Shown in pieces: positions 13,938 to 29,409 of a stretch of 64,000 nucleotides of DNA. The position numbers and the translations under genes are program-made. Under the pieces are notes generated by a model. It saw only the letters and a program-made list of their open reading frames with translations, was not told the origin of the DNA and ran no database searches. Source of the stretch: Desulfovibrio sp. TomC (lineage in GTDB: Bacteria > Desulfobacterota > Desulfovibrionia > Desulfovibrionales > Desulfovibrionaceae); NCBI RefSeq assembly GCF_000801335.2, contig NZ_JSEH01000008.1, positions 124,001 to 188,000 of the forward strand, written 5' to 3'. Positions within the stretch are counted from its first letter, which is position 1, and the number at the start of each line of letters is the position of its first letter.

Positions 13938-14972
13938 TTACCCCCGCCGCGCCGCCCTCTCCTCGATCAGCTCGGCCACGATGCTGACGGCGATTTCTTC
14001 GGGCGTTTCGGCTGCGATCTCAAGGCCAATGGGCGAATGGACCCGGGCGATGTCGTCTTTGGTATAGCCTTCGGCCAAGAGCTTGTCGTAGAGGGCGTCG
14101 CGCTTGCGCAGGCTCCCGATCATGCCGATGTAGCCGGCCTCGGTTTTAAGGGCCAGGGCCAGCACGTCCTTGTCCTGGGCGTGGCCGCGCGTGACGATCA
14201 CCACCGAGGCGTTTTTGTCGATGCTCAGGCTGGCAAAGCAGTCGGGCAGGCTGGAAAAGACCACGGTCCTGGCCGCGTCCGGGAAGCGTTCGGCATTGGC
14301 GAATTCCGGGCGGTCGTCAAAGACCGTCACGCCAAAGCCCACCAGGGCGGCCATGTGGCAGGTGGGGCGCGACACATGGCCGCCGCCGAAAATATAGAGC
14401 GGATCAAGGGCCAGCATCGGCTCGAGCACCCACTGGCTGCCGTCGGCCGTAAGCAGGATCGGCGCGACAATGCCGTGGCCCTGGGCCCGGGCGGCCGTGA
14501 GTACGCCCTGCTCGGGACAGATGCCCACCACACCCTCGGGAGTGAGCAGACAGCGCGTCCCGCCCCAGGCCTCGCCGCCAACCCGGGTCAGCATCAGGGC
14601 GCTGCGCCCGGCGGCCAGACTCCCGGCCAGCGTGGCGAACAGTTCCTGGCCTACGGCGTCGGCCTCAATGCGCTCCAGAAAAACCCGCATCTTCCCGCCG
14701 CAGATGAGATCGGCCCCGGCCGCAGCCTGACCGGTCATGTCGATGCCCATGAGCCGGGACTCTCCAATGGCCAGCGTCTCCTTGGCCGCAGCGATGACCA
14801 TGCCCTCGCCAAGGCCGCCGCCCACGGTGCCGGCAATGGAGCCATCGGCAAAAACAAGCATTTTCGAGCCGGCGGTGCGCGGCGTCGAACCTTCGTTGGT
14901 GACGATGGTGGCCACGGCCAGGGACTCGCCCCGGGCCAGACGGTCGTTTATGGCGGCAATCAGTTCATTCAT
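13938..14972 (-). CDS. xdhC: XdhC-family molybdoenzyme maturation protein
   Basis: A 344-residue XdhC/CoxI protein. In known systems XdhC binds the molybdenum cofactor, helps its sulfuration and inserts it into xanthine-dehydrogenase-type enzymes. Visible features are the N-terminal XdhC_CoxI domain (STPRTAGSKMLV, GTVGGGLGE, GADLICGGKMRVF) and the C-terminal Rossmann-like domain (YIFGGGHVSRP, VTRGHAQDKDVL, IGMIGSLRKRD). The gene overlaps the ligase stop by four bases (ATGA) and has GGAAGGGG as ribosome site. Its obvious client is the aldehyde oxidoreductase encoded at the far end of the same cluster. Confidence 0.93.
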   Translation of the reverse strand: MNELIAAINDRLARGESLAVATIVTNEGSTPRTAGSKMLVFADGSIAGTVGGGLGEGMVIAAAKETLAIGESRLMGIDMTGQAAAGADLICGGKMRVFLERIEADAVGQELFATLAGSLAAGRSALMLTRVGGEAWGGTRCLLTPEGVVGICPEQGVLTAARAQGHGIVAPILLTADGSQWVLEPMLALDPLYIFGGGHVSRPTCHMAALVGFGVTVFDDRPEFANAERFPDAARTVVFSSLPDCFASLSIDKNASVVIVTRGHAQDKDVLALALKTEAGYIGMIGSLRKRDALYDKLLAEGYTKDDIARVHSPIGLEIAAETPEEIAVSIVAELIEERAARRG

Positions 14973-16027
14973 GGGGTTCCCCTTCCTTTATCGGGATTGC
15001 TGACGGTCCAGCCGGCTTCGGTTCGATTGATGCGGCCCAAAATCGGCCCCAGGCGGCGCAGCGGACTGCCGCACGGGCACGGGCCGGGCAGCATACGGGC
15101 CGCGTCGCCGGTGCGGTAGCGCACCAGCGGCACGCCGCGCCGGGAGAGCGTGGTGAAGACGACCTCGCCGACTTCGCCGGCGGCAACCGGCGCGTCGCTG
15201 CCGGGATCGAGCACTTCGAAATAGAGCTGGGCCTCACGCAAATGGTAGCCACTCCCGGCCAGGCACTCCATGCCGCCACCGTAGGCCATTTCCGTGGCGC
15301 TGTAATAATCAAACACCCGGCAGCCAAAGCGATTGGCGGTTTTTCCCCGGAGTTCGGACGAAACAAAGTCCGAGGCGTAGACCACCGAGCGCAGCGTGGC
15401 CCGGGCCGCTGCCATGACGGCCACGTCGTCCAGGGCGGCGAGCAGTTGGGAGGGCGCGGCAATGAGGCTTTTGGGCCGGTGCGCCAGCAGGGCCTCGGCC
15501 AGCCGGGCCGGGTTGCCGGTCGGGTCGCCAAAGATCGGATTGGCCCCCAGCCGGCGCATGCCGCGCCCGATCAGATCGCCCACGCTGTCCGGCTTCTCGG
15601 CCGGAAAGAGAATCAGCACCGTCTCGCCCGGCTCCAGGGTCACGGCCATGACCACCCGGAAACAGTCGAGGGTTTCTTCAATATCGTCGTCGGTCAGGCC
15701 CATGCGCTTGGGCGGCCCGGTGGTGCCGGAGGTGGCGACCGTGACCATGCGGGCGATGGCGTCCTGGGGAACGGTCAAAAACCGGGGGAAATCCGCGGCC
15801 AGTTCCGCCGGCGTCGTGGTCGGGAGCGCGGCAAAGGCCGCAAAACTGTCCGGGAACCCGGCCGGCAGATGGGACAGGCGGTCGCGGTAAAAAGGAGCCA
15901 AGCGGGCATGGTCCAGACTGCGGCCCAGGGCGGCCAGCTGCCAGTCGGCCACCCGGGCCGGGTCCGGTATTTCGCCGCTTTGGCCGGTGGCTGCGGCAAT
16001 CCAGGCGTCAAAGGGGCTTACGCGCAT
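14969..16027 (-). CDS. AMP-dependent ligase (PaaK-like), lacking the C-terminal lid domain
   Basis: A 352-residue member of the adenylate-forming family closest to phenylacetate-CoA ligases. The ATP-binding TSGTTGPPK loop (about residue 95), the FDYYSATEMAYGG motif and YRTGDAARM are present. The chain ends about 20 residues after the hinge-like GRINR. The ~100-residue C-terminal lid, which supplies the second catalytic lysine in complete ligases, is therefore absent. A CPCG pair precedes the hinge. It overlaps TrsS by 10 bases and XdhC by 4. I recall this family as the Desulfovibrio DVU_1553-type CoA ligase. The acid it activates is unknown; the carboxylic acid made by the aldehyde oxidoreductase is an appealing candidate. 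Confidence 0.85.
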   Translation of the reverse strand: MRVSPFDAWIAAATGQSGEIPDPARVADWQLAALGRSLDHARLAPFYRDRLSHLPAGFPDSFAAFAALPTTTPAELAADFPRFLTVPQDAIARMVTVATSGTTGPPKRMGLTDDDIEETLDCFRVVMAVTLEPGETVLILFPAEKPDSVGDLIGRGMRRLGANPIFGDPTGNPARLAEALLAHRPKSLIAAPSQLLAALDDVAVMAAARATLRSVVYASDFVSSELRGKTANRFGCRVFDYYSATEMAYGGGMECLAGSGYHLREAQLYFEVLDPGSDAPVAAGEVGEVVFTTLSRRGVPLVRYRTGDAARMLPGPCPCGSPLRRLGPILGRINRTEAGWTVSNPDKGRGTP

Positions 16028-17355
16028 GATTTTCGCCGATACAGGGCCGTGCCGTCGGCAGCGGTCAGGTTGTAGAGACAAAAGGGAATAAGCCGGTCGT
16101 CGGGCGCGGCCACATGGATGCAGCAGCCGCGCGCCCGCTCCAGGTCGAGCGTCCAGGCGTCCATGAAGGCCATGGCCGAAAGGCTTACGGTTGGCGTGGC
16201 CGCGGCCGCAGCCAGGAACCGATCGAAATCGTCCTTGATGGCCTCCGGGGCCGGGACAGGCCTGGCCGCGCCCCACTGCCGGGCCACGAAGGCCATGGAT
16301 TGCCGCGCGCCCTCCTCGGCCGGGATGGCCGTCTTGTCGCAGCAGCCGCCGCTCCCGGCCAGGGCCAGCCTGCCGTCGGGCAGGACGCGGTAGCTGGCGG
16401 AAAACGAGCACAGGGAATGTTCGCAACACGGCGGGTGCAGATCCTCCGCCCGGACCATGCCGCCGGTTTGCGTCTCCAGGGCGGCCATGACATCGGGCAG
16501 GGTCAGGCGCGGGGCGCTCCCCCCGTTGCCGGGATAGCGGCCGAAATGGGCGGCCGGCTGGAAATGGACGCCGCGCACGCCCGGGGCCAGGGACGCAGCC
16601 AGCCGAACCAGATCGCCGACTTCGCCGTCGTTGACGCCGGGGACCAGGGTGGCGACCAGCACCACGCCCAGGCCGGCGGCAGCGCAGGCCGCCATGGCGG
16701 CCCGTTTTTCCCGGACCAGCCCCCGGCCGCGCAGGGCCACATGGGCGGCGTCGGTCACGCCGTCGCACTGCAAAAAAACGGAATCGAGTCCGGCCGCCGC
16801 CAGTCGCCCGGCCAGGGCCGGGTTGGCCGCCAGGGCCAGACCGTTGGTATTGAGCTGCACAAAGGGGAAACCGGCGGCTTTGGCCAGGGCCACGATGTCG
16901 GGCAGATCAGCCCGAAGCGTCGGTTCGCCGCCGGAAATCTGGATATTGGCCGGCCCGGCGGCGCGTCTGGCCCGGAGAAGCCGGGTTTCCAGGGCGGCCA
17001 GGGTGGGATCGGCGTCAAAGCCGGTCCCGGCATCGGCAAAACAGACCGGGCACCCGAGGTTGCAGCGGCCGGTGACCTCGAAAACCACGGTGCAGGTGCG
17101 CTGGCTGTGCTCCGGGCACAGGCCGCAGACATAGGGACAGCCCTCGCCAGGCGCACTCCCGACCGCGGCCGTCCCCGGGGGCGCAATCTTGGGCTGGTCC
17201 CAGCCGGCCGGACCGGGCGGGCCGTGCCAGAAGCGGGTGCGAAATTCGCCGTGCTCCGGACAGGTGCGCACCAGCCAGCCGTCCTCTCCGACAGCCTCGC
17301 GACGCGCCGGCAGCCGGGCCAAACACACCGGACACAAACTCTCTGTCGCCGTCAC
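16018..17355 (-). CDS. trsS: Radical SAM protein TrsS
   Basis: A 445-residue radical SAM enzyme. An N-terminal cysteine-rich region (CPVCLARLPA, TCPEHGEF, CPYVCGLCPEHSQRTC) precedes the cluster motif CNLGCPVC (about residue 99), then SGGEPTLR and the TIM-barrel strands. The C-terminal part has CCEHSLC, GGCCDKT and RGCC. The CGLC...H...TC plus CNxxCPVCF layout is shared with the tetraether-synthase-type branch of radical SAM proteins. I recall the family name TrsS from Desulfovibrio annotation, where a cysteine may be selenocysteine; here the codons are ordinary Cys. The start is GTG at 17355 with AGGAG 6 bases upstream. The reaction is unknown. Confidence 0.88.
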   Translation of the reverse strand: MTATESLCPVCLARLPARREAVGEDGWLVRTCPEHGEFRTRFWHGPPGPAGWDQPKIAPPGTAAVGSAPGEGCPYVCGLCPEHSQRTCTVVFEVTGRCNLGCPVCFADAGTGFDADPTLAALETRLLRARRAAGPANIQISGGEPTLRADLPDIVALAKAAGFPFVQLNTNGLALAANPALAGRLAAAGLDSVFLQCDGVTDAAHVALRGRGLVREKRAAMAACAAAGLGVVLVATLVPGVNDGEVGDLVRLAASLAPGVRGVHFQPAAHFGRYPGNGGSAPRLTLPDVMAALETQTGGMVRAEDLHPPCCEHSLCSFSASYRVLPDGRLALAGSGGCCDKTAIPAEEGARQSMAFVARQWGAARPVPAPEAIKDDFDRFLAAAAATPTVSLSAMAFMDAWTLDLERARGCCIHVAAPDDRLIPFCLYNLTAADGTALYRRKSCA

Positions 17356-17394
17356 TGTTTACTCCTGCGAATTATACGAACAAGGCAGGATGCA

Positions 17395-17452
17395 TGCCTC
17401 CGGCGGCCGGGGGGATGATCCCCCCGGACCCCTGCAAAGGGGTAATTTTTTA
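17395..17452 (+). repeat. Dispersed terminator-like repeat with T-run
   Basis: The 14-base block at 17395-17408 leads into hairpin 1 (17407-17427, ATGAT loop). Hairpin 2 (CCCC TGCAAA GGGG, 17429-17442) follows, then TAATTTTTT, a complete intrinsic-terminator layout on the plus strand. It lies in the 314-base gap between TrsS and the C_GCAxxG_C_C gene. Confidence 0.85.
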
Positions 17453-17595
17453 ATGCGCCATTTACCCGCTACGCCTCAGGTCCGAAGTTCGTCCAGGCAA
17501 CTTCAGGTGTTTCCCGTCCCGTAATAACAAAGACCATGCTTGCCAGTCAGGCGACGGCCTCCCGCCGCCCGCGCCAGCCCCCCATGAAAAGTCTT

Positions 17596-17646
17596 TGGAA
17601 AGGGGGTCCGGGGGGAAACCTTTCTTCCAGAAAGGTTTCCCCCCGG
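17596..17646 (-). repeat. Partial copy of the dispersed repeat (hairpin module)
   Basis: On the minus strand this carries the CCGGGGGG...CCCCCCGG stem extended by an AAACCTTTCT arm, followed by GGACCCCC, but lacks the GCCTCCGGCGGCC head. It lies 24 bases past the stop of the C_GCAxxG_C_C gene. Confidence 0.7.
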
Positions 17647-17669
17647 TCTTCTCTTCCCCTCCCATCACT

Positions 17670-18113
17670 CTACTCCCGGCCTTCGGCCGGGTCGATGTCG
17701 TAGCTGACGAGGAGTTCCAGGATATGGTTCCAGGCGTCGGCCATAAGCCCGCCGCAGCGGCTGGGATCGGGTTTGCCGTCGTTTAAGATGGCGGCGCAGG
17801 TGATGCCGCCGTAGTCGTCTTTGACCCGTTCGGTGAACCAGTCCACGAAATCCGAGACGAGGGCGTCGCCTTGTTCAAAGGGGATTTCGTCGTCGCGGCC
17901 TTTGCCGATATAGAGGCCAAGGGCCAGACAACTGCCGGTCAGGATGCCGCAGGCGCCGCCCGTGCCGCCCATGCCGTGGCAAAGGCCCATGGAAGCGCGC
18001 ACCAGTTCGGGGTTTTCGCGGCCCTGGGCGGCCAGAGCCAGAAGCACCAGGATCTGGCTGCAGCAGTAGCCTTTGTGTGCAAGCGGCAGGATTTCGAGCA
18101 GCGTGGGATTCAT
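17670..18113 (-). CDS. C_GCAxxG_C_C family redox protein
   Basis: A 147-residue cysteine-rich protein of the C_GCAxxG_C_C family (the DVU_1555-type as I recall). Cysteines occur in GYCCSQ, GLCHGMGG, GACGILTGSCLALGL, ITCAA and SRCGGL, which fits the family pattern of conserved Cys around a Gly-rich centre. Such proteins are presumed to carry a metal or iron-sulfur centre; their chemistry is not established. The ATG at 18113 overlaps the methyltransferase stop (ATGA) and has AAGGAGG in front. A terminator-like repeat follows, so transcription may be reduced before TrsS. Confidence 0.87.
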   Translation of the reverse strand: MNPTLLEILPLAHKGYCCSQILVLLALAAQGRENPELVRASMGLCHGMGGTGGACGILTGSCLALGLYIGKGRDDEIPFEQGDALVSDFVDWFTERVKDDYGGITCAAILNDGKPDPSRCGGLMADAWNHILELLVSYDIDPAEGRE

Positions 18114-18883
18114 ACGGACACCTCCTTGCGGCTGATCCACAGGCCATAGCCCAGGTGGGGTTTTTCGCTGGTCCCGTCACAGGCTGGTTCCCGCCCGGTC
18201 AGCACGGCCATGACCTCCCGGGCCGAACCGAGTTCGAAAACGAGGCGGCAGGAAAGATCGACGAGCAGTTTGGTGTGGTCCTCGAACAGGACCGGCGTCA
18301 GGCCATGGCGCAGGAAACGGGCCTCGGCCACGTCCCGGGGCACGGCTCCGGCGGCGCAGCCCAGGCCCTGTCCGCCGCAGCCCGGAGAACCGGCCCGCAG
18401 ATAGAGGTCGGAAACGATGCAAAATCCGCCGGGAATCAGCACCCGGGTGATTTCGGCCAGGGCCGCCTCGGCATCAGGCAGGGCCGAGAGCACGCATTCG
18501 CAAAAAACGCCGTCAAAGGCGGCCTCGGCCAGCGGCAGCCGGCCGGCCTCGGCCAACAGCACCCGGCCAGGGACCCGACCGGCGGCCTCGGCGGCCAACA
18601 GCGGGGAAAGATCCAGGCCCAGGCCGCAAAACCCGCCGTCGTCCAGGCGCGCCAGGGTTGCCCCGGCCCCGCAGCCGCAGTCGAGTAGCAGTGCGCCGGC
18701 GGCAAAGGGAATGAGGTCCAAGGCCCGTTCGGTCAAGGTCAGGCCGCCGGGCCGGATGGCTCCGCCCGTGGCCCGGCGCACGTCCGCCCGCTCATAGGGT
18801 TTTTCCCTGATGCGTTCCGGGGGACGTCCCGGCGGCGCAACAGGTTCCCCGAGCCGTGGCAACGGCTCGCGCAGGGCCATCAC
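18110..18883 (-). CDS. trsM: SAM-dependent methyltransferase (TrsM-like)
   Basis: A 257-residue class I methyltransferase. The SAM-binding motif LLDCGCGAGATLARL is near residue 69, with motif II-like GLGLDLSPLLAAEA and a post-I segment VFCECVLSALPDAEAAL. A C-terminal region has a cysteine pair (SPGCGGQGLGC). It overlaps the zinc-ribbon gene upstream by 4 bases and the C_GCAxxG_C_C gene downstream by 4. I recall this family as DVU_1556. The substrate is unknown; partnership with the radical SAM protein is suggested only by the fixed gene order. Confidence 0.85.
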   Translation of the reverse strand: MMALREPLPRLGEPVAPPGRPPERIREKPYERADVRRATGGAIRPGGLTLTERALDLIPFAAGALLLDCGCGAGATLARLDDGGFCGLGLDLSPLLAAEAAGRVPGRVLLAEAGRLPLAEAAFDGVFCECVLSALPDAEAALAEITRVLIPGGFCIVSDLYLRAGSPGCGGQGLGCAAGAVPRDVAEARFLRHGLTPVLFEDHTKLLVDLSCRLVFELGSAREVMAVLTGREPACDGTSEKPHLGYGLWISRKEVSV

Positions 18884-19095
18884 TTGTCCTCCAGCAGCTG
18901 CTCCACCTCAAACATTTTGCCCACGGCCAGAAACTCCGGCACCAGCGACAGGCCGCAGGCCGGACAGGTCATGAGCGTAATGGTGAAGCCGCCCTGGAGA
19001 TAGGTGACCCCAACCGGGGCCGGGACAAGGTCCTGGCCGCAGGCGGCGCACTGCCAGTCGCCGGATTCGGGCAGATAGATCGGCGTATCGTTCAT
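18880..19095 (-). CDS. Zinc-ribbon-like small redox protein
   Basis: A 71-residue protein with two CxxC pairs, WQCAACGQDL and MTCPACGLSL, 25-30 residues apart, typical of a zinc ribbon or rubredoxin-like metal site. I recall the family as DVU_1557 redox protein. AGGAGGG is 9 bases before the ATG, and the gene begins 6 bases after the stop of the dicluster gene, so the two are likely translated together. A metal-binding adaptor or electron carrier for the cluster is plausible but not shown. Confidence 0.82.
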   Translation of the reverse strand: MNDTPIYLPESGDWQCAACGQDLVPAPVGVTYLQGGFTITLMTCPACGLSLVPEFLAVGKMFEVEQLLEDK

Positions 19096-19100
19096 GACTG

Positions 19101-21419
19101 TCAGCCCTCCTGCCGGTCCACGCCGGAGACGTTCATGCGGTGGCTGTAGGCGGCATGCACATGGGCCGCGCCGTCGATCAGTTCATAGAGCGCCCAGTAG
19201 GTGACGCGCGCCGTGGCAAACCCGGCCAGATGGCGGCCGGTGGTTTTGTCGGTAAACTTGCGGCCGGTGGCCTCGGCATGGGCCACGGTGCGGGCCACGT
19301 CGGTATCGAGCACATGGCGCGCTTCCATGACCCGGCGCACGGCGTCGGGGATGACAAGCGGCAGGGCCGGCGGCGTTTCAGGGGGCTGGGGCTCGTGCCA
19401 CACGGTTTCGAGAAGCAGGCGCTTGAGCCGCGCCCGGGCCTCGTGGCGGTAGGAAAAGCCAGGATCGGGCCGGTCGGCCGGGTCGCTCGGACCGCCCGCC
19501 CCCCCTGGGAAAAGCAAATCGAGGAGATGGTAGGTCCGCTTGCCGGCTCCGGCCAAACGGTCGCGGCACATGGAGCAGGTGGCCACGAAGTCGCGCGGGC
19601 TTTCGGCCACGCGCCGGGCAATGGTCTCGGCGGCCAGTTCCGGGTGGGCATTGGCTTGCAGTCCGCCAAAGCCGCAGCAGGAGGCCAGCCGGCCCGAGGC
19701 CGGGAGTTCCTCCACGGTCAGGCCGATCTTGCCGAGAATTTCACGCACAGCGGCCAAGGCGGCCGTATCGTGGCGACCGGTGCAGGCGTCGTGGACAGCC
19801 ACCGGGCCGGCCGGGCGCGGGACGCCGCCCGACTCGGGCAGGCCGGTCTCGTCCAGAAGAACCCGCCACAAGGAAACCACGGGGATGTCGGAAGCCATGC
19901 GGGCGAAGATGGCCTGACAGGAGGCACAGGCGGCTATGACCCGGGGCTTGCCAAGGGCCTCCCAATCGGAGCGAAAGGCAGCCATGGCCGCCTCGGCCAG
20001 ATCCTGTCGGCCGGCCCACCAGGCCGGCGCGCCGCAGCAGGCCAGCCCCAGGCCCACGCCGCCGGCCAGGCCGGCCCGCAGATGGGCATACACCGCAGGG
20101 ACGGACGCGGCCGGATCGCCACCGAGCTGACAGCCAGGAAAAAAGAGGTGGGAGCACGTCGCCTCGCCCGGTGCGGCCCGCAGGAGGCGAAAGGCCTCCG
20201 ACTGGGAAAAGGCCATGTCCTCCAGGACGAACTCATGGGCCCAAAGCGGCATCTTGCCGCGCGAAACCATGTCGCGCCGGGCAGCCCCAATGAGGTCGGG
20301 CATGGAAAAGCCCGACGGGCACAGCTCCTCGCACTGGCCGCACATGGCGCAGGAATTGATCATCTGATTGTAGGAGCGCGCGCCCTGGACAATGGAAAGA
20401 TTATTATAGATCTGGCGGGCGTAGACCTTAGGATAGCCCTTGTACTTGGCCAGATAGGTGCAGGATTTGACGCACTCCAGGCACTGGCATTCCAGACACC
20501 GGGCGGCTTCGGCCTTGGCTTCGTCCGGGGTCAGGCCGCTGGCCGGATCGGCCGGAGCCACGGCCGGGATGGGGATAACGCCCTTGGTATTGGTAAAAAG
20601 GCGCGTCGGGCAGGCCCCCTCGCGCTCCCGGGAGGCGGTGACGGACACGCCGGCCATGTGCCGGTCCATGGACACGGCGGCCTTGCGGCCTTCGCCGGCC
20701 AGATTGATGACGGAAAGCGGTTGTCCGGGAACGACAAAACCGCCGCAGAAAACACCCTCCCGGCCAGACAGGGCCAGGGTCAGGGCGTCTGCGGCCTCGC
20801 GGCCGACAGACAGGAAATTTGTGTCGAGCGCTTCGACATAGACGGCGTCGTATTCGCCCGAAAACCGCTCCAAGGCGGCCATATCCAGGCTCTGCCCCGG
20901 ATGGAAGGTCACGTTCATGCGGCCCATGACGGCCAGTTCGGCCTCAAGGGTCCCCGGCGGCAGCAATGCGCCCAGGGTCAGCAGATGGCCGCCCGCAGCC
21001 GCGCCGGCCACGTAGACGTCCACGCCGTAGCCCTTCTTGCCAAGATCCCAGGCCACGGTCAGCGCACTCACGTCGCCGCCCATGACCGCTGCCCGTTTGC
21101 CCTTGCCCGGCATGGACAGGGGTTTGGCCGCCGGCCCGGTGGCGTTTATGACCGTGCGTTCAAGGGAACCCATGCGCAAGGGGTCGTCGATGGCCGCGCG
21201 AACACACTTCGCCTGGCAGAGGTGGTCGCAAATCCGGCCGAAAACCGTGGGCAGGGGCAGGGTGCGGTCAAGAATTTTTCGCGCGCCGGCCATATCGCCG
21301 GTCCGCACGACGGTCATGAATTTGCGAACATCGACATGCAGGGGGCAGGCGGCCTGACAGGCGGGCTGTTCCTCCTGAATGCAACGGTATTCGATATCGT
21401 GCAAACCCTGCTGGTCCAT
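19101..21419 (-). CDS. GltD/HdrD-like dicluster oxidoreductase
   Basis: A 772-residue fusion. Residues ~1-90 resemble the Fer4 entry domain of glutamate-synthase small subunits (CIQEEQPACQAACP, CDHLCQAKC). Residues ~110-340 look like the FAD/NAD-binding region, but the first dinucleotide loop reads MGGDVSAL instead of GxGxxG, so flavin binding is uncertain. Residues ~345-400 hold two ferredoxin-like sites (CLECQCLECVKSC, CAMCGQCEELCP). Residues ~430-650 carry two CCG-type modules as in HdrB/HdrD and GlpC (FFPGCQLGG, CCGAPAWW, CTGRHD, CCGFGGLQ, CSMC). The last ~80 residues form a separate small domain. It probably moves electrons between mop and a thiol or ferredoxin pool. Ribosome site GGGAGGG. 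Confidence 0.85.
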   Translation of the reverse strand: MDQQGLHDIEYRCIQEEQPACQAACPLHVDVRKFMTVVRTGDMAGARKILDRTLPLPTVFGRICDHLCQAKCVRAAIDDPLRMGSLERTVINATGPAAKPLSMPGKGKRAAVMGGDVSALTVAWDLGKKGYGVDVYVAGAAAGGHLLTLGALLPPGTLEAELAVMGRMNVTFHPGQSLDMAALERFSGEYDAVYVEALDTNFLSVGREAADALTLALSGREGVFCGGFVVPGQPLSVINLAGEGRKAAVSMDRHMAGVSVTASREREGACPTRLFTNTKGVIPIPAVAPADPASGLTPDEAKAEAARCLECQCLECVKSCTYLAKYKGYPKVYARQIYNNLSIVQGARSYNQMINSCAMCGQCEELCPSGFSMPDLIGAARRDMVSRGKMPLWAHEFVLEDMAFSQSEAFRLLRAAPGEATCSHLFFPGCQLGGDPAASVPAVYAHLRAGLAGGVGLGLACCGAPAWWAGRQDLAEAAMAAFRSDWEALGKPRVIAACASCQAIFARMASDIPVVSLWRVLLDETGLPESGGVPRPAGPVAVHDACTGRHDTAALAAVREILGKIGLTVEELPASGRLASCCGFGGLQANAHPELAAETIARRVAESPRDFVATCSMCRDRLAGAGKRTYHLLDLLFPGGAGGPSDPADRPDPGFSYRHEARARLKRLLLETVWHEPQPPETPPALPLVIPDAVRRVMEARHVLDTDVARTVAHAEATGRKFTDKTTGRHLAGFATARVTYWALYELIDGAAHVHAAYSHRMNVSGVDRQEG

Positions 21420-21436
21420 GCGTACCCTCCCTGTTG

Positions 21437-21471
21437 AAAAGACGGGACGGGCGGCAAGCGCCCGCCCCGTC
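21437..21471 (-). terminator. Terminator after mop
   Basis: 13-bp stem with one mismatch (21441-21453 with 21459-21471) and a short loop, followed on the minus strand by TTTT. It separates mop from the dicluster gene. Confidence 0.7.
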
Positions 21472-21500
21472 GGGGTTAGGTCAGGATGCGGGAAACGGTC

Positions 21501-24233
21501 TTATTTGCCAAGGGCTTTGAGACCAGCCAGCACCTTCTCGGGGTAGGCCGGCAGGTGGCGGATGCGCACGCCGCAGGCATTGTAGATGGCGTTGATGATG
21601 GCCGGGTGCGGGCCGCACAGCGGCACTTCGCCGACGCCGGAGTTGCCGTAGGGGCCGTGCTCACGCGGGGACTCGACGTAGATCAGTTCCAAAGCGTCCG
21701 GGATGTCCTTGATGTAGGGCACGCCCGCGCCGGCAAGCGACGAATGCTTCTTGATGTCCTCGAAGTCCTCGGACAGGGCCAGGCCGATGCCCTGGGCCAA
21801 GCCGCCCCAGTTCTGGCCGTCGACGGTCTGACGGTTGTTGATGGTGCCGATGTCTTCGACCAGGACCATCTTGTCGACCACGGTCTTGCCGGTGGCCAGC
21901 TCGACAGTCACTTCGGCCAGGAACAGGCCGTACATGTAGCAGCAGAACGGGGAACCGAGACCGTTGGCGTCGCAATCCTTGGCCGGAGCGGTCCAGGTGC
22001 CGTTGTAACGGGTCTTGAGGCCTTCTTTGACCAGTTCGTCGTAGGTGCGATAGGTGCCGTCGGCCTTCTTGCAAGCGGCCACGAGCTGCTGGCAGGCGTT
22101 GATGATGGCCTGTCCGACCACGACGTTGGAGCGCGAGCCGCCGGCCGGGCCGGAGTTGGGGCACTTGCTCGTGTCGTTAAGGACCAGCTTGATCTTGCTG
22201 GCGCAGATACCCATGGGCTTCAAGGTCTCATGGGCGAAGCCGAGCGTGCCCAGATCCGAACCCTGGCCGTGATCCTGCCAGGTGTTGTAGATGGTCACGG
22301 AGCCGTCGGCATGAATCTCGGCGTCGGCGCCGGCGGAATCCGGGCCGTCAAGGCCGGAACCGTAGATGCCGATAGCCACGCCGACGCCCTTTTTATGGGT
22401 GGCGGTGGAGTTCTTTTTGGCGTTGGCCAGGGCTTCCTTGTACTTGGGACGCATGATGTCGATCATCTCGGGCAGCGTCCAGGAATCGGGCACCTGATCG
22501 GTCGGGGTGGTGTCGCCCGGACGGTAGGCATTGATATACCGGAATTCCAGGGGATCCATGCCGAGCTTTTCGGCCATTTCGTCCATGAGCACTTCGGACG
22601 GGAACATGATTTCCGGCGAACCGTAGCCGCGGAAGGCCGAACCCCAACCATGGTTGGTGGCCACGCAGTAGCCCTTGGCGCGCATGTTGGGGATGCCGTA
22701 ACCGGCCATCCAGTACTGCGAACCGCGAAGGGTGAGCAGATCGCCGAACTCGGAATAGGGACCGTGGTCAACGATCCATTCCATATCGGAAGCAACGATC
22801 TTCTTGGTGGCCTTGTCGACCGCGATCTTGCCCTTGGTCCAGAACGGGGAGCGCTTGCCGGTGTAGTACTGCTGCTGGGCGTAGTTGTAGCGCAGGTGCA
22901 CCGGGCGGCCGGTGACCATGGCGGCGACGCCGACCAGGGCTTCCATGGTGGGGCTGAACTTGTAGCCGAAGGTGCCGCCGGTGGGGTTCTGGACGAGGAC
23001 CAGATTTTCCGGCTCAACGCCCAGGCCCGGGGCGATCATGTACAGGTGCAGGTACAGGCCGATGGACTTGGAGTGGATGACCAGCTTGCCCTCGTCGTTG
23101 GTGTAGGCAAATCCTACGTCAGGCTCGATGGGCAGGTGGGGCTGGCGCTGGGTGTAGTATTCGCCGTAGGCGACTTCGTACTTGGCCGTATCGGCGAAGA
23201 ACGGAGCCACTTCGGCGCCCTTGGCGTGGTTCTGCTCGTAATAGGTGTTGGGGGTGCCGGGATGGATTTCGATGGCGTCGTCGGCCATGGCCGCCGGGGC
23301 GCTCATGTAGGCCGGCAGGACTTCCAGGTCGACCTTGACCATCTCGGCGGCAGCGCGGGCATTGGCTTCGGAGTCGGCCGCGACCAGGGCGATGGCGTCG
23401 CCGTACTGGAAGACCTTCTCGTCGCACAGGATCGGACGATCCCAACCGTCACCCTTGTTGGTGGGGAAGGTGATCAGACCGGTGATGCGGTTTTTGCCCT
23501 TGACGTCCTTGGCAGTGATGACGCTGTGCACACCGGGCATCTTGAGGGCTTCGGCGGTGTCGACGCCCTTGACCTTGGCGTGGGACACGCGGGCTTCGAC
23601 AATGGCCAGATGCAGCGTGCCGGCGGGCAGGGAGTTCTTGTGGTCGTCGCCGAACATCCACTGGCCGGTGACCTTGGCCACGCCCGAGGGACGCGGAGCG
23701 CGCGAACCGAAGATGTTGCCGTCGGCCGGCATGTTGTGGTTGATGCAAAGGGTCATTTCACCGCGCAGGACCTTGGCGGCGTCCATGACGGCATCGACCA
23801 GGGGGATGTAGCCGGTGCAACGGCACACGTTTTTGTGCTTCTGGAACCAGTTGCGGACGTCCTCACGGCTGGGCTTGGGATTTTCGTCCAAAAGGCCCTT
23901 GGCCGACAGGATGAAACCGGGGGTGCAAAAGCCGCACTGGGCCGCACCGTGGACAACCCAGGCGGTCTGCAGGGGGTGCAGGGTGGCCGGGTTGCCGAGG
24001 CCTTCAATGGTGGTCACGTTGGCGTAGTCGGCCAGGCGGCGGATCTTGGTGATGCAGGCCCGGGTGACTTTGCCGTCGATGATGACCGAGCAGGCGCCGC
24101 ACTGGCCCTGGGCGCAGCCGACCTTGACGCCGTTTAAGTGCAGTTGATTGCGCAGCACATCAGACAAAAACGCATCCGGATCGACAATGAGTTTGCGCTC
24201 ATAGCCGTTTACGATGAGAATTTTTTCCTGCAT
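21501..24233 (-). CDS. mop: Aldehyde oxidoreductase (molybdenum hydroxylase, MOP type)
   Basis: A 910-residue xanthine-oxidase-family enzyme oxidising aldehydes to carboxylic acids. The N-terminal plant-type ferredoxin domain has Cys40, 45, 48 and 60; the second [2Fe-2S] domain has Cys100, 103, 137 and 139, which are the positions I recall for Desulfovibrio gigas MOP. This supports the ATG at 24233 as start. The molybdopterin domains follow (AFRGYGSPE near the middle), with the catalytic glutamate segment NSGVGEVPL near the C-terminus. No FAD domain is present, as expected for this class, so electrons leave through the iron-sulfur centres. A terminator follows. XdhC and the MoeA-like neighbour are the likely cofactor-handling partners. 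Confidence 0.97.
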   Translation of the reverse strand: MQEKILIVNGYERKLIVDPDAFLSDVLRNQLHLNGVKVGCAQGQCGACSVIIDGKVTRACITKIRRLADYANVTTIEGLGNPATLHPLQTAWVVHGAAQCGFCTPGFILSAKGLLDENPKPSREDVRNWFQKHKNVCRCTGYIPLVDAVMDAAKVLRGEMTLCINHNMPADGNIFGSRAPRPSGVAKVTGQWMFGDDHKNSLPAGTLHLAIVEARVSHAKVKGVDTAEALKMPGVHSVITAKDVKGKNRITGLITFPTNKGDGWDRPILCDEKVFQYGDAIALVAADSEANARAAAEMVKVDLEVLPAYMSAPAAMADDAIEIHPGTPNTYYEQNHAKGAEVAPFFADTAKYEVAYGEYYTQRQPHLPIEPDVGFAYTNDEGKLVIHSKSIGLYLHLYMIAPGLGVEPENLVLVQNPTGGTFGYKFSPTMEALVGVAAMVTGRPVHLRYNYAQQQYYTGKRSPFWTKGKIAVDKATKKIVASDMEWIVDHGPYSEFGDLLTLRGSQYWMAGYGIPNMRAKGYCVATNHGWGSAFRGYGSPEIMFPSEVLMDEMAEKLGMDPLEFRYINAYRPGDTTPTDQVPDSWTLPEMIDIMRPKYKEALANAKKNSTATHKKGVGVAIGIYGSGLDGPDSAGADAEIHADGSVTIYNTWQDHGQGSDLGTLGFAHETLKPMGICASKIKLVLNDTSKCPNSGPAGGSRSNVVVGQAIINACQQLVAACKKADGTYRTYDELVKEGLKTRYNGTWTAPAKDCDANGLGSPFCCYMYGLFLAEVTVELATGKTVVDKMVLVEDIGTINNRQTVDGQNWGGLAQGIGLALSEDFEDIKKHSSLAGAGVPYIKDIPDALELIYVESPREHGPYGNSGVGEVPLCGPHPAIINAIYNACGVRIRHLPAYPEKVLAGLKALGK

Positions 24234-24332
24234 GTCGTCTCGCTCCGTTTCGGGTTGAGGGTTTGTCGCGTTTCCGAGGCCGCGCCCCCGGGTTTTGCTC
24301 CGGATGCGCGGCATTTGATCCTGTGCCGGCCG

Positions 24333-25397
24333 CTATCCCTTGCCAAAACCGCAGGCGGGGTAGCGGCATTGGGGACACATGGCGCACAAGCCGCCGTGTC
24401 CAAGCTCCACAATATCGGCCCGGGTCAGGCGCTGCCCAACCACGAGCCTTGGGACGGTCAGATCGAAGATGCTGGCCTTGTGGTACATGACGCAGCCGGG
24501 CAGCCCGACCACGGGGATCTCGCCGAGATAGGCCAGCATGAACATGGCCCCGGGGAAGGTGGGGGAACCGTAGGTGACCACCTCGCCGCCGGCCGCCCGG
24601 ATGGACGACGGGGTGAGATCGTCGGGATCGACCGACATGCCGCCGGTGACGGCGATCATGTCCGCGCCTTCTTCAATAAGGCGGTTAATGGCCCGCACGG
24701 TCATGTCCTGATCGTCGGGGACGAAGATCTGGCGGATGACGGTGCAGGACAATTCCTCGAACTTGCGGCGCAAAATCGGCCCGAAGGCGTCCTTGATGCG
24801 GCCATGGTAAACCTCGCCGCCGGTGGTCACCACGCCGACGCGCAGCGGCCGGAAGGGGCGCACCTGCACCACCGGACCGTACTCGGCGCAGCAGGCTTCC
24901 ACCGCGTCGATCTTGGCCTCGTCCACCACCAGCGGCACCACCCGGGTGCCGGCCAGCATCTGGCCCGGCCCGACCACCACATTGCCGTGCATGGTGGCGA
25001 TGGTGACTTCCTCGATGGAATTGAGCCGCCGCAAGATGTCCGCGTCTACGGTGAGCAGTCCGGACCGGGCGGCCAGCAGGTTGATGCGGCCTTCGCAGGG
25101 AGCCGAAAAGGCGACGCCCTCCCCGGCTATGGCCTCGGCCATGCGGCGGGCGGCATCGTCCTCGTGCAGAAATCCTTCGGCCAGATCCCAGACATAGATA
25201 TGTTCCTTGCCCAGACGCAGCAGGGCATCGATGTCGCCGACCTCGATGACGTGCCCCTTGCGAAAGGCCGGCCCCTTGCCCTCGCCCGGCACGATGCGGG
25301 TGATGTCATGGCAAAGGACCATGCCGGCGGCATGATGGACGGGTATGCTGCGCATGGGGGCGTTTTTATGGCGCGGTGCGGCTTGTGTGGCGTTCAT
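24333..25397 (-). CDS. MoeA-like molybdopterin-binding protein
   Basis: A 354-residue protein with a MoCF_biosynth (MogA/MoeA-like) core: VGVVTTGGEVYHGRIKDA, DMIAVTGGMSVDPDDLTPSS and PVVGLPGCVMYH. The N-terminus (HHAAGMVLCHDITRIVPGEGKG) resembles the MoeA domain that handles the cofactor entrance. The C-terminal tail is a cysteine cluster CAMCPQCRYPACGFGKG not found in ordinary MoeA, so it may bind a metal or hold the cofactor. The ATG at 25397 is chosen (GGGAAG upstream); a later ATG at 25355 is possible. It lies 99 bases before mop and probably heads the operon. Confidence 0.83.
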   Translation of the reverse strand: MNATQAAPRHKNAPMRSIPVHHAAGMVLCHDITRIVPGEGKGPAFRKGHVIEVGDIDALLRLGKEHIYVWDLAEGFLHEDDAARRMAEAIAGEGVAFSAPCEGRINLLAARSGLLTVDADILRRLNSIEEVTIATMHGNVVVGPGQMLAGTRVVPLVVDEAKIDAVEACCAEYGPVVQVRPFRPLRVGVVTTGGEVYHGRIKDAFGPILRRKFEELSCTVIRQIFVPDDQDMTVRAINRLIEEGADMIAVTGGMSVDPDDLTPSSIRAAGGEVVTYGSPTFPGAMFMLAYLGEIPVVGLPGCVMYHKASIFDLTVPRLVVGQRLTRADIVELGHGGLCAMCPQCRYPACGFGKG

Positions 25398-28599: not shown

Positions 28600-29409
28600 A
28601 TGAACACACAGGATCCAGCTCTCCAACCCAAGGATTCCTTACTTGCCTCCACCTGGGTTCTTGTATGTGGTTTTGCAATCGGACTAATTGCAATCATATT
28701 CTTCATGGGATACATTATCCTTCTGACAGTTAATAAGCAGACAAGCATTCCTGATGACATAAAAAATCTAATAGAAATTGTTTTTTCATTTTCAATTGGC
28801 CTATCATATTCATTTATCGGTGGACACGCCGCTGTTAAAGGCAAAATAAACATTCCTTATGTCAAACAAAATCCTATATTATTTAGTGCTGGAGGCGGAA
28901 TAGCCGCCTTTTTTATAACACTTGTATTGTCACACTCACTGTTTCATCCCAAGTCTACACCTCCTCCACGACCTCTCTCTCCATTAATTTCTGGGTCAAT
29001 TATTTTACACGATGGCTTTCCTGAACCAGCGAAAAGTGGTTTTAACTTCAGAAAACAGCAAGTTGTAGATTGGTACTCTGGAGACGCAGATATCCTTGCC
29101 GCAAGCCCTGGTCAAACAGGAATGAGATTTTTTGTCCAACACGACCAACCACCATATAATAAAAACGCGACTGGAATTGACGCCGCGAACGGAGAAGTCA
29201 TCCAAACCAACGACTTTACCTTAGACAATTCAAAGCCATGTCCTCTAACTGGCTATAAATTCCATTGGATAGAACCCAAACAAAGTACCGTCTATTGCTT
29301 ACGAACTCGTGACGGGAAATCGTATGTAAAATTTATTGTCAATAGCATTAGTAACGACAGGATATCCATTGAGTATGCTTACAGGGAAGATGGGAAAAAT
29401 GAATTCTAG
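28600..29409 (+). CDS. AT-rich orphan membrane protein of unknown function
   Basis: A 269-residue protein I cannot place in a family. It has two membrane helices near the N-terminus (about residues 17-46 and 62-80), a third at about 88-110, a proline-rich hinge (PPPRPLSPL) and a ~140-residue soluble C-terminal domain with four cysteines or fewer and mostly beta-type sequence (GYKFHWIEPKQSTVYCL). Base composition and codon use differ sharply from all neighbours: many AAA, ATA, TTA and AAT codons, clearly below the GC level of the window. AAAGGGGA is 3 bases before the ATG. This looks like a recently acquired gene. Confidence 0.75.
   Translation: MNTQDPALQPKDSLLASTWVLVCGFAIGLIAIIFFMGYIILLTVNKQTSIPDDIKNLIEIVFSFSIGLSYSFIGGHAAVKGKINIPYVKQNPILFSAGGGIAAFFITLVLSHSLFHPKSTPPPRPLSPLISGSIILHDGFPEPAKSGFNFRKQQVVDWYSGDADILAASPGQTGMRFFVQHDQPPYNKNATGIDAANGEVIQTNDFTLDNSKPCPLTGYKFHWIEPKQSTVYCLRTRDGKSYVKFIVNSISNDRISIEYAYREDGKNEF

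Follow-up and report, generated by a model that had tools for sequence, protein, structure and literature searches.

The small protein DVU_1557, with its near-invariant C-terminal lysine, is the steadiest partner of TrsS and a possible carrier in the aldehyde oxidoreductase operon of Desulfovibrio

The question raised by this locus is why a molybdopterin-dependent aldehyde oxidoreductase should be encoded together with a radical S-adenosylmethionine (SAM) protein, a methyltransferase and a ligase. The locus lies in a 64,000-nucleotide stretch of Desulfovibrio sp. TomC (contig NZ_JSEH01000008.1, positions 124,001 to 188,000), here called the window, whose own numbering is used throughout; other genomes and loci are cited by G and L numbers. 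Nine genes, all on the minus strand, run from 25397 down to 13938 in the order MoeA-like protein, mop, dicluster protein, DVU_1557, methyltransferase, C_GCAxxG protein, TrsS (the radical SAM protein), ligase and XdhC. A sequence-only reading of the window, which placed all nine co-oriented genes correctly, proposed that TrsS, the methyltransferase and the C_GCAxxG protein build or modify something that Mop needs, such as a cofactor, and passed over DVU_1557, which we regard as the key item. The steadiest partner of TrsS is DVU_1557 together with the C-terminal domain (CTD) of the dicluster protein, not Mop, and DVU_1557 ends in a lysine that is kept almost without exception. The explanation that we favour, while giving it somewhat less than an even chance, is that DVU_1557 is a swinging carrier for the dicluster protein, bearing on this lysine a group put together by ligase, TrsS and methyltransferase.

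DVU_1557 (18880..19095, minus strand) is a protein of 71 residues and roughly 8 kDa of the zinc-ribbon type, ending LEDK (DUF7479; NF045645, 93 bits; PF24292). In a sample of 149 genomes from the window organism's class, it was found in all 106 genomes with TrsS over cut-off, in 105 by NF045645 and in G143 by the wider PF24292, and NF045645 found it in none of the 43 genomes without TrsS. The sampled genomes are related and their counts are not independent events, a point to be held against our reading throughout. In the class sample the genomes with the dicluster protein are the same 105 as those with DVU_1557, and every one of them has TrsS. Across a phylum sample of 395 genomes, 15 of whose TrsS genomes are shared with the class sample, DVU_1557 was found in 46, including all 43 with TrsS over cut-off; beyond these, G380 and G659 have a split or contig-broken TrsS, and in G574 none was found. 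A mixed set of 26 genomes gave DVU_1557 in 19 of the 20 with TrsS. DUF7479 was absent from four genomes that have only proteins like TrsS or of the tetraether synthase (Tes) type (G127, G148, G166, G294), and from G020, which has a solitary mop. The ligase is over cut-off in all 20 TrsS genomes tested, linked or not and with or without mop; in the class sample it is over cut-off in 106 of the 149 genomes, a total not compared genome by genome with the TrsS list. TrsS, the methyltransferase and the ligase are not tied to Mop itself.

The lysine is the most constant feature of DVU_1557. At thresholds of E 1e-4 and at least 35 bits, 224 open reading frame (ORF) hits were reduced to 174 distinct sequences, many of them from related genomes; this left out a 46-residue fragment of L132/L252, which ends LEDK but scores 21 bits, as well as a sub-cut-off match in L210 with no lysine end. 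A lysine is kept at the C-terminal end in 173 of the 174, and it is the last residue in 167, of which 157 end EDK. In the window its codon, which specifies Lys71, the proposed attachment site, lies at 18883..18885 (minus strand). We aligned 92 members up to the model end, leaving out the extra L046 copy and near-duplicates; their identity to the window protein is 21-70%, and the alignment has no invariant residues but three cysteines, one tyrosine, two glutamates and the terminal lysine. The tail is also constant in length: the fraction of sequences at the commonest tail length is 0.99, against 0.06-0.44 in the eight other families of the operon, which served as an internal control and among whose sequences are some fusions and truncated matches. 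The near-invariant lysine end, and the natural fusions among operon proteins described below, are new in this analysis.

The link between the operon companions and mop is real as well. The window Mop (21501..24233, minus strand; 910 residues) scores 1591 bits against NF045668 (cut-off 1100), its closest matches in the PDB being 1dgj and 1sij/1vlb. The class sample holds a mop match in 105 of 149 genomes (104 over cut-off); TrsS over cut-off and mop occur together in 104, TrsS alone in G092 and G143, mop alone in G020, and neither in 42 (Fisher p about 2e-33, relatedness ignored). The presence of mop in 104 of the 106 TrsS genomes bears out the fixed linkage claimed by the sequence-only reading. 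The mop of G092 may be unassembled, because only 292 bases separate the cluster from a contig start. Both states are found within nine genera, where TrsS, mop, the dicluster protein and DVU_1557 change together, except in G092 without its mop. In the class of G160 (C. tyrobutyricum), a genome chosen beforehand for having both mop and TrsS, the same 6 of 177 genomes carry both over cut-off, 5 of the 6 being independent.

A scan of genome contigs gave 531 TrsS loci, of which the best 80 were considered, some of them cut by contig ends. Gene order recurs across phyla, far beyond chance, so that the conserved gene set recognised earlier stands: among 42 loci of at least 19 kb, mop is found in 37, the dicluster protein in 41, DVU_1557 in 40, the ligase in 39, the methyltransferase in 37 and the C_GCAxxG protein in 36. 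By record titles, the organisms with these loci include sulfate reducers, acetogens, Clostridia and Alphaproteobacteria. Of the best 80 loci, 54 include mop and 26 do not, and 11 of the latter were examined at genome level. Eight of those genomes have mop elsewhere, 7 of them over cut-off (that of G154 reaches 1099.7 bits against the cut-off of 1100); in G153 it is next door to TrsS across a contig break, and G157 and G159 have it elsewhere together with a second TrsS beside mop. G149 has weaker matches only (766 bits), and no match was found in G151 or G155. Mop without companions and companions without mop, the two patterns that the sequence-only reading had named as contrary to itself, thus both occur, as a minority. 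G020 has its solitary mop, with TrsS, dicluster protein, DVU_1557 and ligase all below cut-off, while G143, G151 and G155 have the set of TrsS, ligase and DVU_1557 with no mop found genome-wide. Extra mop copies are also found in genomes with the full operon, either without nearby companions (L075-L077, L169) or with only a MoeA-like gene nearby (L078, L170, L171).

The operon seems to join two separable machines. G143, G151 and G155, the genomes with no mop found, keep CTD, DVU_1557, methyltransferase, TrsS and ligase. The same five-part module stands beside HgdB-like genes in L127 and L257 and beside Frd-like flavoprotein and TRAP-like genes in L260 and L261 (labels by eye), with no mop in the fetched stretches; in L172 this module lies beside a pyridine nucleotide-disulfide oxidoreductase (by Pfam), again with no mop in the stretch fetched, and mop is elsewhere in that genome (G273). 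Minimal units of mop, dicluster protein and DVU_1557 without TrsS occur twice in G252 and once in G158, and G252 has three mop and three DVU_1557 genes with one TrsS and one ligase match. An operon of mop, dicluster protein, DVU_1557, C_GCAxxG protein and ligase without TrsS, with a gene of the zinc alcohol dehydrogenase family inside it, is found in G015 (L073). A further candidate for a minimal unit, in G153, was not counted, as two contigs that overlap by 127 bases place TrsS just downstream. Natural fusions join the dicluster protein to DVU_1557 in seven ORFs and the CTD to DVU_1557 in L131; single cases join TrsS to ligase (L087), TrsS to methyltransferase (L141), methyltransferase to ligase (L129) and DVU_1557 to ligase (G156). 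As an observation apart, one mop-dicluster-DVU_1557 unit of G252 (L182:5060-14347) is next to genes labelled by eye as a glycyl radical enzyme and its activase.

What chemistry might TrsS perform? The protein (16018..17355, minus strand), a radical SAM protein of the Tes type, scores 593 bits against NF045646, above the cut-off of 490, and 305 bits against the Tes model NF045702, below the cut-off of 450. A profile of 17 TrsS sequences matches Tes (MJ0619, GDGT-MAS; PDB 7TOL/7TOM) with an E of 2e-122 to 7tol, and TrsS aligns over most of its length. According to the passages of the Tes paper available, that enzyme carries three 4Fe-4S clusters plus a rubredoxin iron, and bonds a substrate carbon to a cluster sulfur. 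Among 160 distinct TrsS rows (L071, L072, L177 and L178 are Tes-type or only TrsS-like), the rubredoxin ligands C8, C11, C32 and H35, the N-cluster ligands C73, C77, C80 and H83 and the SAM-cluster ligands C98, C102 and C105 are kept in 159-160. Three further cysteines, C316, C411 and C426, are kept in 156 rows each, and 157 rows keep M395, the counterpart in the alignment of the labile Met439 of Tes; the Tes-type pattern of rubredoxin, N-cluster and SAM-cluster ligands and C-cluster methionine is found in 157-160 of the rows. We infer that C316, C411 and C426 are the C-cluster ligands, which the Tes passages seen do not name, and that M395 corresponds to Met439, by way of a profile alignment with a 20-residue tag offset. 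TrsS differs from Tes in its length, having about 440 residues where the crystallised Tes chain has 526, and in lying in redox operons. The profile match to Tes is broken in two by an unmatched stretch that is longer in Tes.

Several observations on TrsS stand by themselves. The TrsS of L155 (L155:9893-11302), from an Acidobacteria genome, reads an in-frame TGA where the window protein has Cys311 and is likely a selenocysteine form by its sequence. Selenocysteine was rejected as a general clue to TrsS catalysis, Cys311 being kept in only 114 of the 160 rows, and a TGA flagged in G319, near the profile end, was taken as an ordinary stop. Tandem TrsS paralogues followed by a ligase are found in L067 (L067:5641-11316), together with MbdU-like and HgdB-like proteins, and in L172 (L172:6876-10856). 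In L130 (L130:3467-4636) and L146 (L146:617-1702), with Clostridiaceae and Pelotomaculum in the titles, TrsS has as its neighbour a GTPase, CobW-like to the eye. TrsS-like proteins without the other genes occur in two genomes of the window organism's own class, G127 (L071:8214-9800) and G148 (L072:7765-9366); that of G127 reaches 519 bits, over the Tes cut-off, suggesting from its sequence that membrane-spanning lipids may be present in relatives of the window organism. The TrsS-like proteins of G127, G148, G166 and G294 were set aside, as their genomes lack DUF7479 and the G127 protein scores as Tes.

The ligase (14969..16027, minus strand) is of the DVU_1553 family and forms adenosine monophosphate (AMP), with 377 bits to NF045666. 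It has the AMP-binding domain and lacks the usual C-terminal domain, its PaaK-like matches in the PDB stopping at residue 322-334 of 352; a Lys-Gly tail remains, whose lysine codon (in PDKG) is at 14987..14989 (minus strand). In ANL enzymes, loss of the C-terminal domain would spare adenylation more than transfer to coenzyme A (CoA). A plain CoA-ligase role for the window protein is uncertain because that domain is absent. The end could be read in 106 ligases: 78 keep the C-terminal domain and 26 share the short form of the window protein, 19 of these having a P..KG motif in the tail.

We propose the following arrangement. One machine would be an oxidation unit, in which the MoeA-like protein and XdhC mature Mop, and the dicluster protein, with DVU_1557 docked onto its CTD, forms the redox partner of Mop. 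The second machine, made up of TrsS, the methyltransferase, the ligase and probably the C_GCAxxG protein, would work on DVU_1557 and not in the maturation of Mop. The ligase would activate a carboxylic acid as the acyl-AMP and transfer it to the C-terminal lysine of DVU_1557; TrsS would then take a hydrogen from an unactivated carbon of the lysine-bound group and, like its relative Tes, use its C-terminal cluster to form a bond, either C-S or C-C; and the methyltransferase would complete the group. The finished group may resemble a lipoyl or LysW arm that reaches the dicluster protein, whose two CCG domains, cysteine-rich and of the heterodisulfide-reductase type, hint at disulfide chemistry. 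Mop would be the commonest client of this module, which other oxidoreductases seem to share.

Two known carriers suggest themselves for comparison. With the lipoyl domain and lipoate-protein ligase, the analogy is in the proposed function alone, a lysine-linked group swinging between redox sites; no sequence relation to DVU_1557 was found or is claimed. Like the LysW and ArgW carriers, DVU_1557 is a small zinc-ribbon protein with a conserved C-terminal residue. The attachment residue of LysW is its C-terminal glutamate and LysX is an ATP-grasp enzyme, whereas DVU_1557 ends in lysine, its ligase is of the AMP-forming ANL type, and the sequence match is weak. The available parts of the literature on LysW and ArgW describe substrates attached to the side-chain carboxylate of the carrier.

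A number of points weigh against this proposal. G150 has TrsS with no DVU_1557 found (its dicluster gene runs off the contig end), and G574 and G263 have DVU_1557 with no TrsS found, in operons with methyltransferase, C_GCAxxG protein and ligase. DVU_1557 is missing from 14 of the best 80 TrsS loci, although 7 of 8 such genomes that were searched do have it (L083, L099, L139, L140, L144 and L158 are loci outside those 8 genomes). The lysine is third from last in 5 of the 174 DVU_1557 sequences, and in G156 it is retained at the point of fusion to the ligase, which shows that the protein can do without a free C-terminus; because the exceptions mostly keep the lysine without the free end, it is the side chain that is implicated. 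A second DVU_1557 copy in L046 (L046:10241-10612) has lost the lysine, ending MEETWNGV, and would serve as a natural control for the carrier idea. The LysW carrier profile finds only 10 of 92 DVU_1557 members, weakly (best E 0.011), position 311 of TrsS is poorly kept as cysteine or selenocysteine (114 of 160), and the 78 ligases with a C-terminal domain could be ordinary CoA ligases. The dicluster protein as electron acceptor, which the sequence-only reading also held, is a claim that stands in part: the minimal units of G252 and G158 support its role beside Mop, but the acceptor reconstituted in vitro for the D. gigas Mop, in the passages of that work available, is flavodoxin. While the partnership of these proteins is observed in their distribution, the existence and chemistry of a covalent group and the path of the electrons are proposed from sequence comparison, and should be read accordingly as conjecture.

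The alternative that survives best, though on balance we consider it rather unlikely, dispenses with a carrier: Mop would oxidise a specific aldehyde, the ligase would make the CoA ester of the product, TrsS and the methyltransferase would transform the free substrate, and DVU_1557 would be a zinc-ribbon subunit of the dicluster protein. The PaaK-like ligase family, with its C-terminal domain kept in the majority, fits such a small-molecule pathway, as do the alcohol dehydrogenase gene inside the L073 operon and the enzymes beside other TrsS modules, an HgdB-family protein in L067 and a FAS1/MaoC-type dehydratase in L127, as well as TRAP-like transporter genes (by eye) in L258-L261. It leaves unexplained, however, the near-invariant lysine end, the 26 ligases of 106 that have lost the C-domain, the great variety of neighbouring enzymes, and the single TrsS and ligase that G252 has beside several mop-dicluster-DVU_1557 units.

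Another possibility, and an unlikely one in our estimation, is that the helix with the lysine at its tip serves, without any covalent group, for docking or regulation and is read by TrsS, the ligase or the dicluster protein; docking could account for an invariant lysine at the C-terminus, which is a further point against a carrier. The predicted structures bear on this. The CTD, about 85 residues at the end of the dicluster protein (19120..19382, approximate bounds, minus strand), is a stand-alone gene beside DVU_1557 in several mop-less loci (L127, L142, L155, L172, L251, L253 and L256). AlphaFold2 gave the window DVU_1557 alone a predicted local distance difference test (pLDDT) of 75 and a predicted template modelling score (pTM) of 0.59, and gave the natural CTD-DVU_1557 protein of L131 a pLDDT of 91 and a pTM of 0.83, as one confident unit, which also speaks for the carrier arrangement, and whose C-terminal helix is of high confidence; the two are different proteins, modelled with no metal. 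Foldseek placed the DVU_1557 model nearest the MqsA zinc domain (probability 0.97, E 0.036) and matched the CTD-DVU_1557 model to HigB/RelE (probability 0.57-0.72, E 0.4-0.8), ranked below unrelated top matches of low probability; neither model had a match with E below 0.001. A PDB search with the DVU_1557 profile gave weak, mostly zinc-finger-type matches (best E 0.002). Among 92 members at E<1, 36 match the YgiT finger and 43 MqsA, with best values of about 1e-4, among many zinc-ribbon families, and neither TIGR03831 nor TIGR03830 is among the six matches of the window protein at that level. DUF4258 matches 7 of 71 CTD members (best 7e-4), and a RelE/DUF4258-type fold is possible for the CTD, all such fold statements being tentative. 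The order, CTD then DVU_1557, is that of toxin then antitoxin in pairs of the MqsR/MqsA kind. The CTD-DVU_1557 pair may, by these models, descend from a pair of the MqsA/YgiT and MqsR/RelE/DUF4258 type, with no toxin role implied; it differs in its weak scores, in belonging to a redox operon and in its frequent fusion with a protein of the Fe-S flavoprotein-like kind. Such a resemblance, and the well-predicted helix, would suit a docking element. Docking tails, however, seldom hold an exact length across phyla, and the DVU_1557-ligase fusion and the two-residue extensions keep the lysine but lose the free end.

Modification of Mop itself, as the sequence-only reading had it, we regard as very improbable. 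The strong co-occurrence with mop, even where unlinked, and the cofactor genes within the operon speak for it. The enzyme of D. gigas speaks more strongly against it: the genome (G035) has the complete set beside mop (L058), and that mop is identical over 906 aligned residues to the chain of PDB 1sij/1vlb, the aldehyde oxidoreductase (MOP) of the same family as the window Mop. In the passages available on this enzyme, which describe it as the first crystal structure of the xanthine oxidase family and as studied for almost 40 years, the cofactor seen at 1.28 A in Mop purified natively from D. gigas is an ordinary molybdopterin cytosine dinucleotide. A lasting change of Mop cofactor or peptide is unlikely because an organism with the full cluster has the ordinary native cofactor, and the idea was dropped as the main one once that cluster was found, though a labile or transient modification may still occur. 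The mop of G020 without companions and the modules of G143, G151 and G155, with no mop found, tell against it too. Least probable of all is that DVU_1557 is a sulfur or selenium carrier, its C-terminal carboxylate adenylated by the ligase to yield a thiocarboxylate for the sulfido ligand of molybdenum, since, despite the pairing of a small protein of conserved end with an adenylating enzyme and the NifS-like genes (by eye) inside some operons, it is the lysine and not the free end that is conserved, the end is not made of small residues, five variants run past the lysine, there are modules with no mop found, and the solitary mop of G020 is without DVU_1557.

The remaining genes of the window operon may be placed briefly. 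The dicluster protein (19101..21419, minus strand; NF045663, 953 bits) has a GltD-like N-terminus (PF14691), a 4Fe-4S dicluster (PF13534) and the CCG domains (PF02754, two stretches) before the CTD. The methyltransferase, called TrsM in the earlier reading, is of the DVU_1556 family (18110..18883, minus strand; NF045667, 200 bits), and the C_GCAxxG_C_C protein of the DVU_1555 family (17670..18116, minus strand; NF045669, 169 bits, cut-off 103; PF09719). XdhC, an aldehyde oxidoreductase maturation factor, lies at 13938..14972 (minus strand; NF045664, 400 bits). The MoeA-like protein (24333..25397, minus strand), whose gene precedes mop in most class loci fetched, is below every NCBIfam cut-off, yet has a molybdopterin-binding domain match (PF00994, E 4e-24). 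The other eight proteins match NCBIfam equivalog or exception models above cut-off, and these families are already catalogued, as the NCBI models show. The statement that most genes overlap by 1-10 bases was too strong: 4 of 8 junctions overlap (by 4, 10, 7 and 4 bases), and the other 4 have gaps of 314, 5, 81 and 99 bases. Elsewhere, many operons include an NTP transferase with an HD domain (DVU_1551) and a CobC-like histidine phosphatase, which, counted as one joint cluster, are present in 45 of the best 80 loci (for example L079:13703-14854 and L108:14800-15414), and by eye none lies beside the window cluster. A 269-residue ORF at 28600-29409 (plus strand) has a third-position GC of 0.34, against about 0.8 in most ORFs listed, and looks recently acquired from its composition.

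No function for TrsS or DVU1553-DVU1558 is given in the portions seen of the open-access papers found, subscription journals and preprints lying outside the search; TrsS is named in a table of one review, as far as its available text goes, and the single papers retrieved for DVU1553-DVU1558 and for the combined subject appear unrelated by their listings. DVU_1559 is among the proteins listed with counts in a proteome of D. vulgaris Hildenborough. No paper on DUF7479 was found in the open-access literature searched, and DVU155x is absent from the main text, as far as seen, of a D. vulgaris fitness paper whose supplements were outside the search. The review text available on the D. gigas enzyme has no occurrence of 'operon' or 'gene cluster', and its passages do not mention the partners. 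The genetic partners of this long-studied enzyme thus appear undescribed in the open literature so covered. It is possible, though we consider it less likely than not, that DVU_1557 is a new kind of carrier, its lysine bearing an undescribed organic group that ligase, TrsS and methyltransferase assemble in place, and that a dicluster protein serving Mop and several further anaerobic enzymes uses it to shuttle electrons or acyl groups. If that is true, a lysine-tipped carrier with its own radical SAM, methyltransferase and ligase machinery would constitute a new system for a protein-bound prosthetic group.

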